NCBI GenBank assembly: GCA_009886115.1
Contig: VFJJ01000048.1
Coordinates: 1 to 36,948, forward strand
Direction: 5' to 3'
DNA: 36,948 nucleotides
Source: Actinomycetota bacterium
Lineage (GTDB): Bacteria; Actinomycetota; Acidimicrobiia; IMCC26256; VFJJ01
Under the pieces are notes generated by a model. The model saw nothing but the letters and a program-made list of their open reading frames with translations. It was not told where the DNA came from and did no database searches. Both the position numbers and the translations under genes were made by a program. Positions 6,277 to 36,948 of this stretch are shown here, one piece after another (within the stretch, counting starts at the first letter, position 1; the number at the start of each line of letters is the position of its first letter).

Positions 6277-6355
6277 GGGAGTGTCGCAGGGTCCGCGATC
6301 TCGGACAAGCCGTGAAGAGACGATTCCACATCTACACCGGGTGTTCACTGTGACG

Positions 6356-6707: not shown

Positions 6708-8230
6708 GCGCCACTCAGCACGGGCAGCGATGCATGGTCGAGGGCGCTCAGGAACCGGTCGGCCCACTGGTGGACCGTCGAGCTCCTGACTGTAGAGCGC
6801 AGGCGCGCCATCCGCCGACGGGCTTCGTCGACGGGCATGGAGACTGCGTCGACGATCGCGGTGCGGAGGTCGTCACCGTCGTGTGGGTCGACCAACCTCG
6901 CTGCGTGGAGCTCCCGAGCGGATCCGGCGAACGTGCTGAGCACGAGAACCCCCGAGCCGTCGATCCGGGACGCCACGTACTCCTTGGCCACCAGGTTCAT
7001 GCCGTCACGAAGGGGGGTCACGAGCATGACATCCGCAGCTCGGTACAGGGCGATCAGCTCGTCGAACGGCAGCGAGCGGTGCAGGTAGTGAACAGCGGGT
7101 CTTCCCATCGGAGCGTTCTCGCCGTTGATCTCGTCCACCAGCCGTTCGATCCGCTCACGCTCGGCGCAGTACTGGACCAGCCCTTCCCGGCTCGGGACGG
7201 CGACCTGGACCATCACGTGATCGGACACCGACAACACGCCCGCTCGCAGCAGGTCCCTGAACGCCTCCAGCCGGGCCACGATGCCCTTGGTGTAGTCGAG
7301 ACGATCGACTCCGAGCAGGACATGCCGTGGAGCTCCGAGCTCGTCGCGGATCGCTGCGGCGCGCCTGACGGTCTGGTCGCTCGATGCAGCCCGCTCGACC
7401 TTCTCGACGTCGATCGAGATCGGGAAGGCGCCGATGTCGACCGCACGCCCATCGAACCGGAGCCGACGCGAGCACACGTCGACCCGAGCCAACGCTCGTG
7501 CGCTCCTCACGAAGTTCGCGGCGTCGTTCGGGACCTGGAAGCCCACGAGATCGGCGCCGAGGAGACCAACGATCACCTGTCGCCGCCACGGGAGCCCAGC
7601 GAACAGCTCGGGGGATGGAAAAGGGATGTGGAGGAAGAACCCGATCTTGACGTCGCTGCGGAGTCGTCGGAGCAGCGCGGGGACGAGCTGGAGCTGGTAG
7701 TCGTGAACCCAGACGGCCGCTCCGGGGGCCGCCACCTCCGCGGCCGCGGCCGCGAACCTTTCGTTCACGCTGACGTAGGCGTTCCACCAGTCGAGATCGA
7801 GCTCCGGGGCTCGGATCGCGTCGTGATACAGCGGCCAGAGCGTTCGATTCGAGAAGCCCTCGTAATAGCGCTCGTGCTCGAGGGGCGTGAGCGCGACCGG
7901 GTGCAACGCCATGTGCGCGTGGGAGAACGGCAGGGTGAGCCCGGTGGTGCCCGGCCAACCCACCCAGGCGCCCCCACGCGCCGCGAGCACCGGGGCGAGG
8001 GCGCCCACCAGCCCGCCCGGGCTGATCTCCCAGCCGGTCGGCACGGCGTCGATGCTCCGTCTGCCGTTCGACGGCGAAGAGGGTCGGCACAACGGGAGAC
8101 GATTGGCGACCACGACGAGATCCGCCGCCCCCGGGTGGCCAACCGAGACGAAGGGCGCCTCAGTACCGTCGAGCCGGGACCGCTCAGCTGGCGCCCCACG
8201 CAGTGGCTGACCGAGTACCAACGATGTCAT
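6704..8230 (-). CDS. otsA: trehalose-6-phosphate synthase (GT20)
   Basis: Predicted cytosolic glycosyltransferase making trehalose-6-phosphate from UDP- or GDP-glucose and glucose-6-phosphate. The 508 residues include VVANRLP near the N-terminus, GGLVGALAPVLAARGG (sugar-phosphate loop), VWVHDYQLQLVPALLR, HIPFPSPELF, GVDRLDYTKGI (about residue 315) and RDGMNLVAKEYVA, all family signatures. It is slightly longer than E. coli OtsA (474) because of an N-terminal extension of about 40 residues. The start overlaps the stop of the upstream small gene and its stop overlaps the start of the broken debranching gene, both as ATGA. No trehalose-phosphate phosphatase is seen in the window. A role in osmotic or starvation protection is inferred. 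Confidence 0.93.
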   Translation of the reverse strand: MTSLVLGQPLRGAPAERSRLDGTEAPFVSVGHPGAADLVVVANRLPLCRPSSPSNGRRSIDAVPTGWEISPGGLVGALAPVLAARGGAWVGWPGTTGLTLPFSHAHMALHPVALTPLEHERYYEGFSNRTLWPLYHDAIRAPELDLDWWNAYVSVNERFAAAAAEVAAPGAAVWVHDYQLQLVPALLRRLRSDVKIGFFLHIPFPSPELFAGLPWRRQVIVGLLGADLVGFQVPNDAANFVRSARALARVDVCSRRLRFDGRAVDIGAFPISIDVEKVERAASSDQTVRRAAAIRDELGAPRHVLLGVDRLDYTKGIVARLEAFRDLLRAGVLSVSDHVMVQVAVPSREGLVQYCAERERIERLVDEINGENAPMGRPAVHYLHRSLPFDELIALYRAADVMLVTPLRDGMNLVAKEYVASRIDGSGVLVLSTFAGSARELHAARLVDPHDGDDLRTAIVDAVSMPVDEARRRMARLRSTVRSSTVHQWADRFLSALDHASLPVLSGA

Positions 8231-28952: not shown

Positions 28953-29597
28953 TCAGCGGCCGGTTGGGGCCGATCGTGACAGGCCGAACTGGCTGACCCC
29001 GAGATACCCGGAGCGAAACCCGGCTTCGCTGTATGCCAGGTAGAGCTCCCACATCCGCTTGAAGACAGGGTCGAAGCGTTCGCTCGCGATGGTGGGCCAG
29101 TTCGCCATGAAGCTCGATCGCCAACAAGCCAACGTCGCCGCGTAGTGCGGGCCGAGATCGCGTCGCTCGGAGATCGTGAGTGACGTGTGGGTGTCCAGCG
29201 CGCCGGCGATGGCCTCGACCGCCTCGTCGGACCGGGCCATGGGACGCAGGTGGCGAGCCTGCTGTTCAGGCGTGCCCCACTGCATGATCGACGGCCCGAT
29301 GTTCTGCAGGCCGATCGTGTTGATGTGGGCGGGGGCTCCGACGCGATCGAGCTCCTCGATCACGACCAGCTGCTCGTGCACGGAGGCGTTGCGCCCACCG
29401 AAGGCCTCAGGCCATGCCGCGGTCGCGTACCCCGCGTCGAACAGACGACCGTTCCACAGCCGATGCAATTCGATCAACTCGTCGTCCGGCCCGCTCGGGC
29501 CCGTCGACTTCGCCAGCTCGGAAGGGAAGCTCTGGGCGAGCCAGGTGCGGAGCTCGTCGCGGAGAGCCTCCGCCGCGGACAGCACCGTCGGGCTCAC
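28953..29597 (-). pseudogene. acyl-CoA dehydrogenase / cyclopropane-fatty-acid synthase chimera
   Basis: One open frame joins two unrelated enzymes. From GTG 29597, about 125 residues match the N-terminal helical domain of acyl-CoA dehydrogenases (LRDELRTWLAQSFPSEL, GYATAAWPEAFGGRNAS, GLQNIGPSIMQWGTPEQQ, RHLRPMARSDE). Directly after, at about 29200-29230, the frame continues with THTSLTISERRDLGPHYAAT and ANWPTIASERFDPVFKRMWE, LYLAYSEAGFRSGYLGV, the C-terminal end of a cyclopropane-fatty-acyl-phospholipid synthase. The dehydrogenase active site, flavin-binding half and the synthase SAM-binding domain are all missing. It looks like the product of a deletion that fused two genes in frame; activity is very unlikely. 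Confidence 0.7.
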
Positions 29598-29677
29598 GTC
29601 GTGGCCTCGGCCAACGAGATCCGATGGTCGGTGCTGTTGCTGAGCACTGCCGTTGCGCGCACGATCTGCCCCTTCAA

Positions 29678-29719
29678 CTTGTCCAGGCCGTCTTGTCCAG
29701 GCCGTCTTGTCCAGGTCGT
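29678..29719. repeat. three tandem 14-base repeats
   Basis: The unit CTTGTCCAGGCCGT occurs at 29678-29691 and 29692-29705, and with one change (T for C) at 29706-29719. It lies upstream of the chimera gene and downstream of the kelch-like fragment. The copy number may vary between strains. Confidence 0.75.
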
Positions 29720-29803
29720 CGCCGGAGATCGTCAGGTATGGAGCTGGCGAGTTCGCCAACCGTAGCGACCGAGCACCGGTCCCTCGGTTCCCCCGGGTGG
29801 CGA

Positions 29804-30115
29804 TCATTCCCCGCAGCCGGAGCCGGCTGTGATGGCTGCCCCGTCGAGGAACTCGACCCGCAGGCTCTTGCACCGCGTAGCCCGGTACCGATTACCGGAG
29901 CACGTGCCGAAACGGTTGAACGGGCCGATCCACCCGGTGTCGTCATCGGGAGGGCCGAGCCGTTCGGTGAGCACGGCGATCGTGGCGTCGGCATCGTCGC
30001 CGAAGCTGACGATGCCGAGGACGTGTCCACCGAAGACCCCTTCCGAAACACACGGTGTTCGGGGGAGCTCGTCCCAACGATCAGCGGCCAGGTCGTAGCG
30101 GTACCGCCCGAACAC
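29804..30115 (-). pseudogene. fragment with kelch-like start and secreted-protein-like C-terminus
   Basis: From GTG 30115 about 103 residues can be read. The first (VFGRYRYDLAADRWDELPRT) match a kelch blade, YxYDxxxDxWxxLP. The rest (VSFGDDADATIAVLTERLGP, DTGWIGP, with paired Cys in FGTCSGNRYRATRCKSLRVEF) resembles a small actinobacterial extracytoplasmic domain of unknown function. A single kelch blade cannot form a propeller and there is no signal peptide, so the piece looks like another deletion-joined remnant. It begins about 20 bases after the ERCC4-Lsr2 gene. Alternative: a short real gene of unknown role. Confidence 0.4.
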
Positions 30116-31678: not shown

Positions 31679-32053
31679 ATGGATCTGACGACTGACCCTC
31701 GCTACGATGCCCTCCGGCGCGACTTTCCGCCGATCCTCTCCACGGCGCAGGTTGCCGAGATCCTCCAGCTCGACATCCGCACCGTCATGAAGGCCGTGCA
31801 GCTGGGCCACCTCAAGGCCAGCCGCATGCCCGGCGCCCGCAAGTGGCGGTTCCTGCTCGAAGACGTCATCGCCATGGTCGAGCAGAACTTCACCACCGTC
31901 GGCGCCGGCGAAGACGACACCGAAGACGACGACGCCCCCGCCGCTCCTCCGGCGGCCGCCCCGCCTGCCACCCGAGGCCGCAAGACCAAGCAGGCCCCAC
32001 CTCGCTCGACGCCGGCCCCACGAGGCCGGGGCGCAGGCACCCGCACCAAGTAG
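31679..32053 (+). CDS. excisionase/BldC-like helix-turn-helix DNA-binding protein
   Basis: A 124-residue protein. Residues about 15-70 form a MerR-like helix-turn-helix of the excisionase family: PPILSTAQVAEILQLDIRTV, then MKAVQLGHLKASRMPGARKW and RFLLEDVIAMVEQN. The tail changes from acidic (GEDDTEDDD) to Ala/Pro-rich and finally basic (TRGRKTKQAPPRSTPAPRGR), a disordered segment that could bind nucleic acid. ATG 31679 is fixed by the promoter just upstream. It stands alone between a gene fragment and the convergent Rieske gene. It could be a chromosomal regulator like BldC or a leftover of a mobile element; the conserved promoter favours the first. Confidence 0.82.
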   Translation: MDLTTDPRYDALRRDFPPILSTAQVAEILQLDIRTVMKAVQLGHLKASRMPGARKWRFLLEDVIAMVEQNFTTVGAGEDDTEDDDAPAAPPAAAPPATRGRKTKQAPPRSTPAPRGRGAGTRTK

Positions 32054-33170: not shown

Positions 33171-34319
33171 CTACCGCATCGCGCGGAAGCAGCCGCGCAG
33201 CTCGTGTACGAACAGCTCAGGCTGCTCGAACGCGGCGAAGTGTCCGCCACGATCGAGCTCGTTCCAGTAGCGCAGATCGGTGTAGGTCCGCTCGGCCCAG
33301 GCACGTTGGGGGCGGACGAGCTCCTTGGGGAAGATCGAGCCCCCCATCGGCACGTCGACCCGGGCGTCGAACGGCGCCGGTTGGCCCTCCCAGTACAACC
33401 GCGCCGACGACGTCGCCGTCGCGGTGAGCCAGTAGGTGCTGATGTTGTCGAGGAGCCGATCGGCGCCGAACGCTGCGACGGGATCGCCATCGCAGTCGGT
33501 CCACGCGTGGAACTTCTCGAGCACCCATGCGCATTGTCCCGACGGCGAGTCCGTGAGCCCGTACCCGAGCGTCTGGGGGCGTGTGCGCTGTTGGTGCACG
33601 TAGCCCATCTCCCAGTTCTGAAGACGCGCTGCCGACGAGACGTACGCGGCGAAACTCGCACGCTCATCGTCGGTAGCGGGTTCGTAGCCGGGCGGTGGTC
33701 CGACCGAGACGAGGTTCAGGTGAATTCCGTGCAGACGGTCGGGGTGTCGCACACCGAGATGGTTCGCGATGCTCGCGCCCCAGTCGCCGCCCTGAGCCGC
33801 GAACCGGTCGTAGCCGAGGCGGGTCATCAGCTCGGCCCAGGCGTCAGCGATGTGCTCGCGGTTCCATCCGGTGACGCGCGGTTTGCCGCTGAATCCGAAG
33901 CCGGGGAGCGACGGAATGACGAGGTGGAAGGCGTCGCGAGCGCTGCCGCCGTGGCCCGCCGGGTCGACGAGCGCGTCGATCACGCCGAGGAACTCCGTGA
34001 TGGTGCCCGGCCAGCCGTGAGTGAGCACGAGCGGAAGCGCGTCAGCTTCCGGCGAGCGCACGTGCAGGAAGTGGATGTCGACGTCATCGATGACGGTGCT
34101 GAACTGCGGATATCGGTTGAGCTTGGCCTCGCACGCCCGCCAGTCATACCGCTCGGCCCAGTGCCGACACAGGTCCTGGAGGTATGCGAGCGGGACACCT
34201 TGCGACCAATCGGCCACGGTCTGCGGCTCCGGCCACCGCGTGTTCGCCAGACGGGCGCGCAGGTCCTCGAGGTGCGAGTCGGGGACCGCGACGCGAAACG
34301 GAACGAGGGCGTCGCTCAT
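33171..34319 (-). CDS. epoxide hydrolase (EHN-type alpha/beta hydrolase)
   Basis: A 382-residue enzyme. The N-terminal EHN domain (about 1-110) has PFRVAVPDSHLEDLRARLAN and TRWPEPQTVADWSQG. The alpha/beta domain carries the oxyanion motif THGWPGTITEF, the nucleophile Asp 179 in QGGDWGASI, and the catalytic His 360 in DRGGHFAAFEQP. These are the residues of microsomal-type epoxide hydrolases, which open epoxides to diols. The start overlaps the stop of the broken monooxygenase gene as ATGA. An epoxidising monooxygenase followed by an epoxide hydrolase is a sensible pair, but the first enzyme is damaged here. Confidence 0.9.
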   Translation of the reverse strand: MSDALVPFRVAVPDSHLEDLRARLANTRWPEPQTVADWSQGVPLAYLQDLCRHWAERYDWRACEAKLNRYPQFSTVIDDVDIHFLHVRSPEADALPLVLTHGWPGTITEFLGVIDALVDPAGHGGSARDAFHLVIPSLPGFGFSGKPRVTGWNREHIADAWAELMTRLGYDRFAAQGGDWGASIANHLGVRHPDRLHGIHLNLVSVGPPPGYEPATDDERASFAAYVSSAARLQNWEMGYVHQQRTRPQTLGYGLTDSPSGQCAWVLEKFHAWTDCDGDPVAAFGADRLLDNISTYWLTATATSSARLYWEGQPAPFDARVDVPMGGSIFPKELVRPQRAWAERTYTDLRYWNELDRGGHFAAFEQPELFVHELRGCFRAMR

Positions 34320-35486
34320 GCGACAGCCTCCCATGGCGGCGTGCTCGGATCGGTGAAGCGCGGCGTGCGGCCGTCGGCGATCCACGCTTCCACCTTGGCT
34401 CGGATCTCGGGGGCGAACAACAGGGTTGGGTCGTACATCTGCGGTGCCAGCAGCAGAGCCTCGTTGACTGCTCGGTCCTCGGTGGCGAGTTGGGCGAGCG
34501 CTGCCATGTAGCGCGCACGTTCGAGCGTCTCGGGGGTCGGCTTCGAACGCTCCCCCACCGTCTCGGGGAACTGGAGGTCGTATCCGATCGCGAGCTGCCA
34601 TGGGAACTGCAGGCGCGCGGCCTGACGAGCGAAGAACTCCTTCGGCATGCCGTCGACGTTGCCGCTGAGGTCGGTCAGCGTCTGGCCGAGCGTCACTGCA
34701 CCCAGGCAGGCGGACGAGATGCCTTGGCCGAACATGGGATTTGCCGCGAGCGCGGCGTCGCCGATGGCCACGAACCCGGCGGGCGGCTCGGCCAACGATT
34801 CGTAGCGACGCCAGCGGTTCGCGGTGGCACGCGAGGTTCGGATCTCGCTGAGCTTTTCCGACTGGGAGTAGATCTGCCATAACAGGGGAAGCTCGCAGTT
34901 CCGGAGGAAATCGTCGAAGGCCCCTTCCTCACCGGGCGGGTAATCGCGCGACTGGCCGAACAGCGAGATGATGTAGAGACCGTTGTCTTGGGGGTAGATG
35001 ATGGCGCCCTTGGTGCACTTGGGTGACCGCAGCTGCGCGGCGAAGCGCACCGTGTCGGGCCAGGCCTCTTTGGGGATGCGGATCAACCGGCACGACGTTC
35101 GGCAGGGCCAGCAGTCGGCGACGGGCCACGAGCTCGAGCAGTGGGCGGCGCACGCCGTACCCCATGGCCTGGGACGGCCCGCGGGCGACCGACCAGCCGG
35201 CGCTTCCCCATCCGGCACCCCACGCGATCTGATCGAACAAGATCGCGCCTTCGCGCTGGGTCTCCTCGACGAAGCCCGGGGACAGTTCGTCGAGGACCTC
35301 ACGTCCGAGCTTCAAGATCCCGTGCACATGCCCACCTTGGGGCACGCCCTTGCGCTGCTCGGGTGACTCGGGCAGTTCGTCGCGCTCGATCACGGTGACC
35401 CGGTCGAAATGATCCGACAGCACCCGCGCGGCGACGATGCCAGCAAAGCTGTTCCCGACGACGACCGCGTGTTCGGCCTTGGTCAT
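34316..35486 (-). pseudogene. FAD-dependent monooxygenase with internal deletion and frameshift
   Basis: ATG 35486 opens with the FAD-binding VVVGNSFAGIVAARVL, ERDELPESPEQRKGVPQGGH and VHGILKLGREVLDEL, and continues to RRPLLELVARRRLLALPNVV. Near 35090 homology passes to another frame: TKGAIIYPQDNGLYIISLFG, then FVAIGDAALAANPMFGQGIS (the second FAD motif, GD) and a helical C-terminus ending at 34316. About 60-100 residues normally found between these parts (including the DATGRGS-like motif) are missing. The enzyme is therefore broken by deletion and not only by a sequencing slip. The downstream epoxide hydrolase overlaps as ATGA, so translation coupling may also be disturbed. Confidence 0.72.
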
Positions 35487-35682
35487 GGTGACGTGCACTC
35501 TCGTGTTCGCACAGCTCGTTCGTCGAGGCGTGGTGGAACGTCACTCTGGTCGAATCCGTCTCGGGCCGCCACAACCGTCCGTGAACCCCTGTGCGAACCC
35601 TGTGTGACCGATCGGTGACCACCCTCGGCATCCTTCATGGCAACGTCGGATGCCAACTCACGGAGCAGCTGTTCAATGCCGG

Positions 35683-35737
35683 TGCCCGGGACGGGAGTCG
35701 AACCCGTACGTCCTTGCGAACTGACGGGTTTAAGACC
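35683..35737 (-). other. 3' half of a tRNA-Leu(UAA): probable attachment site
   Basis: On the minus strand the bases read from the anticodon loop (CTTAAAC, anticodon TAA) through a class II variable arm (CAGTTCGCAAGGACGT) and a perfect T arm (ACGGG-TTCGACT-CCCGT) to the acceptor 3' strand CCCGGGC and A, followed by CC. The 5' half is absent: the bases before the loop do not pair with CCGTC and no GCCCGGG acceptor strand or D arm is found. A fragment that begins at the anticodon loop is the usual footprint of tyrosine-integrase integration into a tRNA gene. Confidence 0.78.
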
Positions 35738-35849
35738 GAAGAAACCATCCATGTGGTGTTATCGCATCCGCCCAGGTGCCTGTGACCTGCGGTTCTCGTC
35801 CGTGACGTCCGTCGAGTTATCGGTCGTGCGGCCGGCTGCCGGGAAATCC

Positions 35850-35868
35850 TGTGCACGATCTGTGCACG
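35850..35868. repeat. paired TGTGCACG repeats inside the presumed element end
   Basis: TGTGCACG occurs at 35850-35857 and 35861-35868, spaced 11 bases apart, one helical turn. The core GTGCAC is palindromic. The pair lies between the tRNA fragment and vapC. It could bind an integrase/excisionase arm or a regulator. Confidence 0.45.
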
Positions 35869-35901
35869 CGACAGCAACCATATTGAGAGCCGGACGAAGA
35901 G

Positions 35902-36321
35902 TTAACCCATCGCGGGAACGAGCTCGAACGCGTCGCAATGAACAGGCCGAACGACGGTGAAGTGCCGACGATCGACGGTCGCGATACGAGTCGACCCTTT
36001 GCGCTCGGCGACCGCGATCAGGCTCGCGTCGGTGACCCCGAGCCCGAGATCGGCGTACCTCCCGATGAGCTGATCGACGCGGTCCCAATCCGCCCCGGTG
36101 AGCGCCTCGACACCAAGGCTGCCGTCGCGGATCATCGCGATCAGCGCCAGCTCGGCAGCGACGCCCAGTCCACGCGACAACATGTAGCCCGCCTCGGCGA
36201 TCACCAACGCGGTCGTGACCAACGGGCCAGGGTCGGTCTCCAGCAGCTCACGACACGCTGCGTGGCTCTTGTCGTCCCGGTCGCCGAGAGCAACCAGTGG
36301 ACCGGTGTCGACGATCAGCAC
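35902..36321 (-). CDS. vapC: PIN-domain toxin, VapC family
   Basis: A 139-residue PIN-domain RNase. The acidic residues expected at the Mg-binding site are present: Asp 5 (IVDTGPLVAL), Glu 43 (VIAEAGYML), Asp 98 (VTDASLIAVAE) and Asp 117 (TVDRRHF). Known VapC proteins cut tRNA or rRNA and stop translation. It follows the antitoxin gene by six bases. The symbol is by family; the RNA target cannot be predicted. Confidence 0.9.
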   Translation of the reverse strand: MLIVDTGPLVALGDRDDKSHAACRELLETDPGPLVTTALVIAEAGYMLSRGLGVAAELALIAMIRDGSLGVEALTGADWDRVDQLIGRYADLGLGVTDASLIAVAERKGSTRIATVDRRHFTVVRPVHCDAFELVPAMG

Positions 36322-36327
36322 GACAGA

Positions 36328-36564
36328 TCAGTCGCGACCGAAGCCATCAGCGAGCATCTCGTCGATCCGATGCGACAGCCCGGTTCCCGAGGCACCGATT
36401 CCGGCGAGGACCAACCTACGGCGAGCCCCCGTTGGACGGGTTGGTTCGGGCGTGTGCTCGGCAAGAACCTCCACCGCGAGCTCATGGACACCGATGCCAC
36501 GTGCAGCGGCTGCAGCCTCCAAGCGGCGAGCGACATCATCGGGAACAGTCACGACGATCGACAT
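36328..36564 (-). CDS. vapB: antitoxin of the VapBC pair (ribbon-helix-helix)
   Basis: A 78-residue protein with a short N-terminal strand (SIVVTVPDDVARRLEAAAAA) and helix (RGIGVHELAVEVLAEH) typical of ribbon-helix-helix antitoxins that repress their own operon. The C-terminal part (LAGIGASGTGLSHRIDEMLA) would wrap the toxin. It comes first in the operon, six bases before vapC, the standard order. Assignment to the VapB group rests mainly on the partner. Confidence 0.82.
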   Translation of the reverse strand: MSIVVTVPDDVARRLEAAAAARGIGVHELAVEVLAEHTPEPTRPTGARRRLVLAGIGASGTGLSHRIDEMLADGFGRD

Positions 36565-36574
36565 GCCATCAATC

Positions 36575-36948
36575 CTACGCCTCAGCAGGCCACGCCCGGG
36601 CGAGCAGCGCAGAGCCGATGACGGACGGCTCGAGCTCGCGTCCGGTGTAGCCGTGCGGGCCGGCGAGGTACGCGTCGAGACGGCGGGTGTCGTCGGGGGT
36701 CCACAGCCGGGCTTGGGGAGCGGATGTCGCAGCGGTGAGGTCTCTCGGTCCGAACCCGACTGCGGCGAGCCGGTCGTGCCAACGGTCGCGAAGCTGGCCG
36801 GGTTCGACGCCGTGGTCTTTCGCGACCCGGGTCGCCGGCGCCGCGGCTTGGCGGGCTTGGGTCGTGGGGGCGCCGAGCTCCGCGGTCAAAGTGAGGATCT
36901 GCTCACGGCGGGTCGACATCGCCCGGATGGCGTCGTCGGACACACCGA
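36575..36948 (-). CDS. fragment of a TrwC/MobF-type conjugative relaxase (partial)
   Basis: The frame is open to the right edge and ends at 36575. The visible part (VSDDAIRAMSTRREQILTLT, ATRVAKDHGVEPGQLRDRWH, RLAAVGFGPRDL) matches the segment behind the relaxase domain of actinobacterial TrwC/MobF proteins. In these the helicase domain follows, but here the protein stops after about 35 further residues (WTPDDTRRLDAYLAGPHGYT and a short end), so it is 3'-truncated or a relaxase-only form. The catalytic Tyr and His cluster would lie outside the window. It supports conjugative ancestry of the element. Confidence 0.68.
   Translation of the reverse strand, partial: GVSDDAIRAMSTRREQILTLTAELGAPTTQARQAAAPATRVAKDHGVEPGQLRDRWHDRLAAVGFGPRDLTAATSAPQARLWTPDDTRRLDAYLAGPHGYTGRELEPSVIGSALLARAWPAEA

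Follow-up and report, generated by a model that had tools for sequence, protein, structure and literature searches.

The host genome has a single tRNA-Leu(UAA) gene, and the tRNA-Leu(UAA) fragment near the right end of the window is very probably its 3' half, displaced to the far end of a mobile element whose integrase is encoded on contig C210. The window is the entire contig C84 (36,948 bases); the draft genome comprises 224 contigs totaling 5.45 Mb. On the minus strand, a block of 54 bases (35681-35734) reads CTTAAACCC...CCCGGGCACC and is identical at 54/54 positions to the 3' part (C210:6118-6171) of an intact tRNA-Leu(TAA) gene located at 6087-6172 on C210. The block opens with C32, the first base of the anticodon loop, and closes with C75, the second C of the CCA that the gene encodes; the first base outside it at the anticodon-loop end is G in the C210 gene versus T in the window. 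A pattern search of the genome allowing up to 3 mismatches returned exactly two copies, one on C84 and one on C210, both with 0 mismatches; reversed patterns, used as the control, gave 0 matches. No complete tRNA was found in the window by ARAGORN, and the 5' half of the tRNA is therefore absent from it. A third tRNA-Leu fragment was found neither in the window nor in the rest of the genome. The initial annotation had described a 3' fragment that starts in the anticodon loop and lacks a 5' half, which these data bear out, but it had placed 55 bases at 35683-35737, so that its coordinates were off by 2 to 3 bases. The features of the window that bear on the element are collected in Table 1.

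Table 1. Features at and around the tRNA-Leu(UAA) fragment (window coordinates)
Feature	Position	Strand	Basis or remark
Motif GTCACCGATCGGTCACAC, similar to integrase arm sites, with GTCAC repeats spaced 11 bp apart	35602..35619	-	On the outer (left) flank, 61 bp past the fragment's 3' end
tRNA-Leu(UAA) 3' half, displaced attR-type attachment-site fragment	35681..35734	-	54/54 identity with the intact gene
Further GTCAC copies	35806 and 35786	-	Read from the sequence
Two TGTGCAC copies spaced 11 bp apart, possibly inner-side (P) arm repeats	35850..35867		Weak, spacing only
VapC-type PIN-domain toxin, 139 aa, inside the element	35902..36321	-	PF01850, E 5.2e-15
78-aa ORF, presumed antitoxin	36328..36564	-	Directly upstream of vapC, position only
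MobF relaxase piece, cut by the contig end	36575..36948	-	TrwC profile 221-285/286, E 3e-8

From the fragment alone, the initial annotation had predicted that an intact tRNA-Leu(UAA) with the same 3' half would be found next to an integrase, and had proposed searching for a second copy of the block and for a tyrosine recombinase. Both were located on C210. The integrase ORF runs from an ATG at 6284 to a stop at 7252, in the same direction as tRNA-Leu and starting 111 bp 3' of it, and the contig itself stops at 7266, 14 bp past the integrase. The predicted protein carries the domains Arm-DNA-bind_4, Phage_int_SAM_3, and Phage_integrase, and it retains the arginine, the HxxR box (HDLRH), the second histidine (GHAT), and the tyrosine (YSHV). 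Compared with the integrases of G057 and G008, however, it lacks 57 residues, including the loop PKTSRSRR. The lysine of that loop is catalytic in tyrosine recombinases, and the full catalytic set (R, K, HxxR, H/W, Y) is hence incomplete in the C210 protein, where an assembly error is possible. A search for named close relatives of the integrase in a collection of genome contigs gave only distant ones (30 to 38%), and phage integrases were all <60% identical to the C210 integrase, with 27 to 32% among the matches listed.

Across 58 genomes of the order, the C210 integrase has its four best-matching homologues in G043, G057, G008, and G044 (49 to 55% identity in the matched segment); their genes all start directly 3' of tRNA-Leu(UAA), and a broken copy occupies the same place in G023. 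More distant homologues adjoin tRNAs for Arg, Pro, Met, Ala, or Lys, or no tRNA. In a maximum-likelihood tree, the five tRNA-Leu integrases fell on one side of one branch with support of 99/96 and in 100% of bootstrap trees, and none of 500 shuffles grouped them as tightly (0/500 as low). Within this order, these integrases thus make up a clade confined to tRNA-Leu(UAA), and the recombinase sought on the strength of the fragment belongs to it.

The arrangement proposed for the window is seen whole in the relative G057, where both element ends lie on a single 1.65-Mb contig. There, the intact tRNA-Leu (810562-810648, minus strand) has the integrase alongside, and a tRNA 3' fragment that begins at the anticodon arm runs from 795419 down in the same orientation as the tRNA, 15.2 kb away. 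Exactly two copies of the tRNA 3' block are present in the G057 genome, and a MobF gene and the integrase lie between the tRNA and the fragment. Two of the features by which Islander recognizes islands, an intact tRNA gene whose terminal fragment also occurs in the genome and a tyrosine integrase adjoining the tRNA on its 3' side, were found in the genome under study; the third, spacing of 2 to 200 kb on one replicon in the same orientation, was found in the homologous G057 element. The integrated-element model of the initial annotation is therefore well supported.

On the 5' side of the intact tRNA on C210, a small ORF is kept in 19/19 relatives examined and a MATE transporter in 14/19. Because these neighbors are conserved across the order, the 5' side is ancestral and the 3' side is the place where elements enter. 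In a synteny search for the empty site, the left-flank genes of the window were not found 3' of tRNA-Leu(UAA) in order-level relatives, and homologues of the first left-flank gene occurred in only 12/61 genomes, this genome included. No close relative without the element was present in the collection, in which the window's family is represented by one genome.

In the mechanism that we propose, the C210 integrase would recombine the tRNA gene at the anticodon loop with an element-borne copy of the tRNA 3' half. The restored tRNA gene would combine the 5' half of the host with the 3' half brought by the element, and the 3' half native to the host would be pushed to the far end of the element, where it would now form the window fragment. 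The element would run rightward from the fragment through VapBC, the MobF piece, and an unassembled middle to the C210 integrase and the intact tRNA. Because the window is the whole of C84 and C210 ends just after the integrase, we infer, rather than observe, that the partner lies beyond the right edge and that C84 and C210 are physically joined. The fragment could instead be a relic of another, lost element, unrelated to the tRNA-integrase pair on C210, whose own element would end elsewhere. The lack of a physical link between the two contigs and an assembly contamination estimated at 3% speak for such a relic, but with just two identical 54-bp copies in the genome, another end would need to be unassembled, and the MobF content fits the element type of G057, which has the same integrase clade; we consider an unrelated relic improbable. 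That the fragment is a chance resemblance, or a tRNA pseudogene that never served as an attachment site, is scarcely credible given the 54/54 identity from the anticodon loop to CCA and the zero control matches, and no evidence favoring either was found.

The cargo right of the fragment had been annotated as a VapBC pair and a MobF relaxase piece. VapC stands on its PIN domain (E 5e-15), with a match to TIGR00028 that falls below the cut-off of that profile; the proposed VapB had no family match in Pfam or NCBIfam and is assigned by its place next to vapC. The relaxase piece was upheld by the TrwC profile, although the segment 36578-36946 matches only positions 221-285 of 286. It aligned with the MobF of the G057 element over 113 residues at 31%. 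The window gene stops just after the relaxase domain, without a helicase, whereas the G057 MobF continues into the helicase. The N-terminal part expected past the window was on no other contig of the assembly, and no plasmid match was obtained for the piece. The complete relaxase gene that characterizes a MobF-type ICE or IME was thus not found here. Since the integrase lacks the catalytic-lysine loop and the MobF lacks a helicase, the element is probably immobile, judging from these gene products as predicted, unless the assembly is at fault.

The left flank may be less simple than a border between element and host. The pattern GTCACCGATC[AG]GTCACAC, searched with up to 2 mismatches, occurs exactly twice in 5.45 Mb: at 35619-35602 (minus) in the window and at C210:6235-6252, the latter lying between the tRNA block, 63 bp away, and the integrase ATG, 31 bp further on. 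Random segment pairs from the genome matched as well at the same offset in 6/400,000 cases, or about 1.5e-5. Related integrases have GCTAACG repeats at 11-bp spacing at the corresponding place, between the tRNA and the integrase gene, and this analogy suggests that the GTCAC repeats are integrase arm sites. Plain host DNA on the left would not be expected to carry such a motif outside the fragment. Arm sites belong to an element, and the DNA just left of the fragment is thus probably derived from another element of the same specificity. As read from the sequence, the left flank would probably not be clean host DNA but the end, on the integrase side, of an earlier element at this site. The tRNA-borne element of the initial annotation accords with the G057 arrangement, but what it called the "left border" may separate two elements instead of element and host.

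We accordingly lean slightly toward a refinement in which the fragment marks the junction of two elements stacked at the tRNA-Leu gene. The right one, with VapBC, MobF, and the C210 integrase, would have inserted beside an older left one, a CIME-like relic that keeps its integrase-side arm and has lost the integrase. The 18-bp motif, whose only other genomic copy sits next to the intact tRNA at the same offset, argues for stacking, as do the low chance of such a match and the analogous repeats of related integrases. So does the single element of G057, in which the DNA outside the fragment is without that element's GCTAACG arm repeats, and so does G033, where arm-like sequence lies 3' of tRNA-Leu without an integrase. 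Against it, no integrase remnant was detected left of the fragment (the best tblastn match, E 0.009, was far away and unconvincing), a third tRNA-Leu fragment is absent from the assembly, and the genes on that side appear to be metabolic ones (Rieske oxygenase, epoxide hydrolase, and transporters). Given the missing remnant and third fragment on the left, a decayed or partly deleted older element is the likeliest form of such stacking. A broader reading, which we offer as speculative and rather unlikely, is that tRNA-Leu(UAA) is an order-wide integration hot spot for one integrase clade, at which elements stack and then lose their integrases; the fragment would be an element-element junction flanked on either side by integrase arms, and the older element would carry the left-hand metabolic genes as cargo.

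Among known systems, the closest are the tRNA-gene islands catalogued by Islander, 2083/3919 of which belong to class A, with crossover in the anticodon loop (PMC4383910). The case shares with them the intact tRNA, the displaced 3' fragment, the tyrosine integrase beside the tRNA, and the anticodon-loop crossover class; unlike theirs, its ends are on separate contigs that both stop inside the element, so that the interval is not measurable. Actinobacterial T4SS-type ICEs with MobF (TrwC) relaxases (PMC3218068) likewise combine a tyrosine integrase, a tRNA target, and a high-GC genome, but the MobF here is truncated, the likeness extends to the integrase, tRNA target, and MobF piece alone, with no VirB4, VirD4, or other transfer gene seen in an element whose middle is unassembled, and the integrase clade occurs within this order exclusively at tRNA-Leu(UAA). 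Elements that accrete in tandem and relics without an integrase have precedents (PMC5704250, PMC3218068), and the possible stacking at one target, with an outer element lacking an integrase, resembles CIMEs and tandem ICE/IME accretion (PMC5704250); in contrast to CIMEs, the outer element is backed here by the arm-like motif only, and its far end was not found. The case is an ordinary tRNA island of the anticodon-loop class, apparently decayed, whose sole twist is the sign of an older element at the site. It matters in that it confirms, from raw sequence, the predictive value of a displaced tRNA half for an integrase on a different contig. Should the left flank be an older element, the adjoining catabolic genes would have been acquired horizontally; apart from this, the biology is that of a routine mobile element.

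Several further observations were made in the left flank and at related loci. The FAD (flavin)-dependent gene adjoining the fragment (34316-35498, minus strand) is split over two frames and is ∼70 residues short compared with its G019 homologue; it appears to be a pseudogene or to reflect an assembly deletion. A single ORF at 28956-29873 (minus strand) joins an acyl-CoA dehydrogenase N-terminal domain to a cyclopropane synthase (CMAS) C-terminal end and looks like a deletion scar or an assembly join. Given the shortened, frame-shifted gene and the fused ORF, small assembly deletions are possible. A small HTH_17 protein, of a fold common to excisionases, is encoded 3.6 kb left of the fragment (31679-32050, plus strand). 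In G033 (locus L059), the repeat 3' of tRNA-Leu, TTTGCTCACGCTTTACG, is very similar to that of its congener G008, and it is likely a trace left at this tRNA by an element since lost. The genome under study also holds a second element (L119, G000:C85:5000-24921) with a tRNA-Ala(CGC), an integrase, and a MobF with the whole TrwC domain; this MobF was considered as the missing N terminus of the window piece and was rejected as a separate, complete MobF beside the tRNA-Ala integrase. Finally, at positions 271-1801 of L118 (contig C53), a tRNA-Cys is accompanied by the N-terminal remnant of an integrase and by a stretch with 76% identity to the window vapC; this is probably another decayed element.
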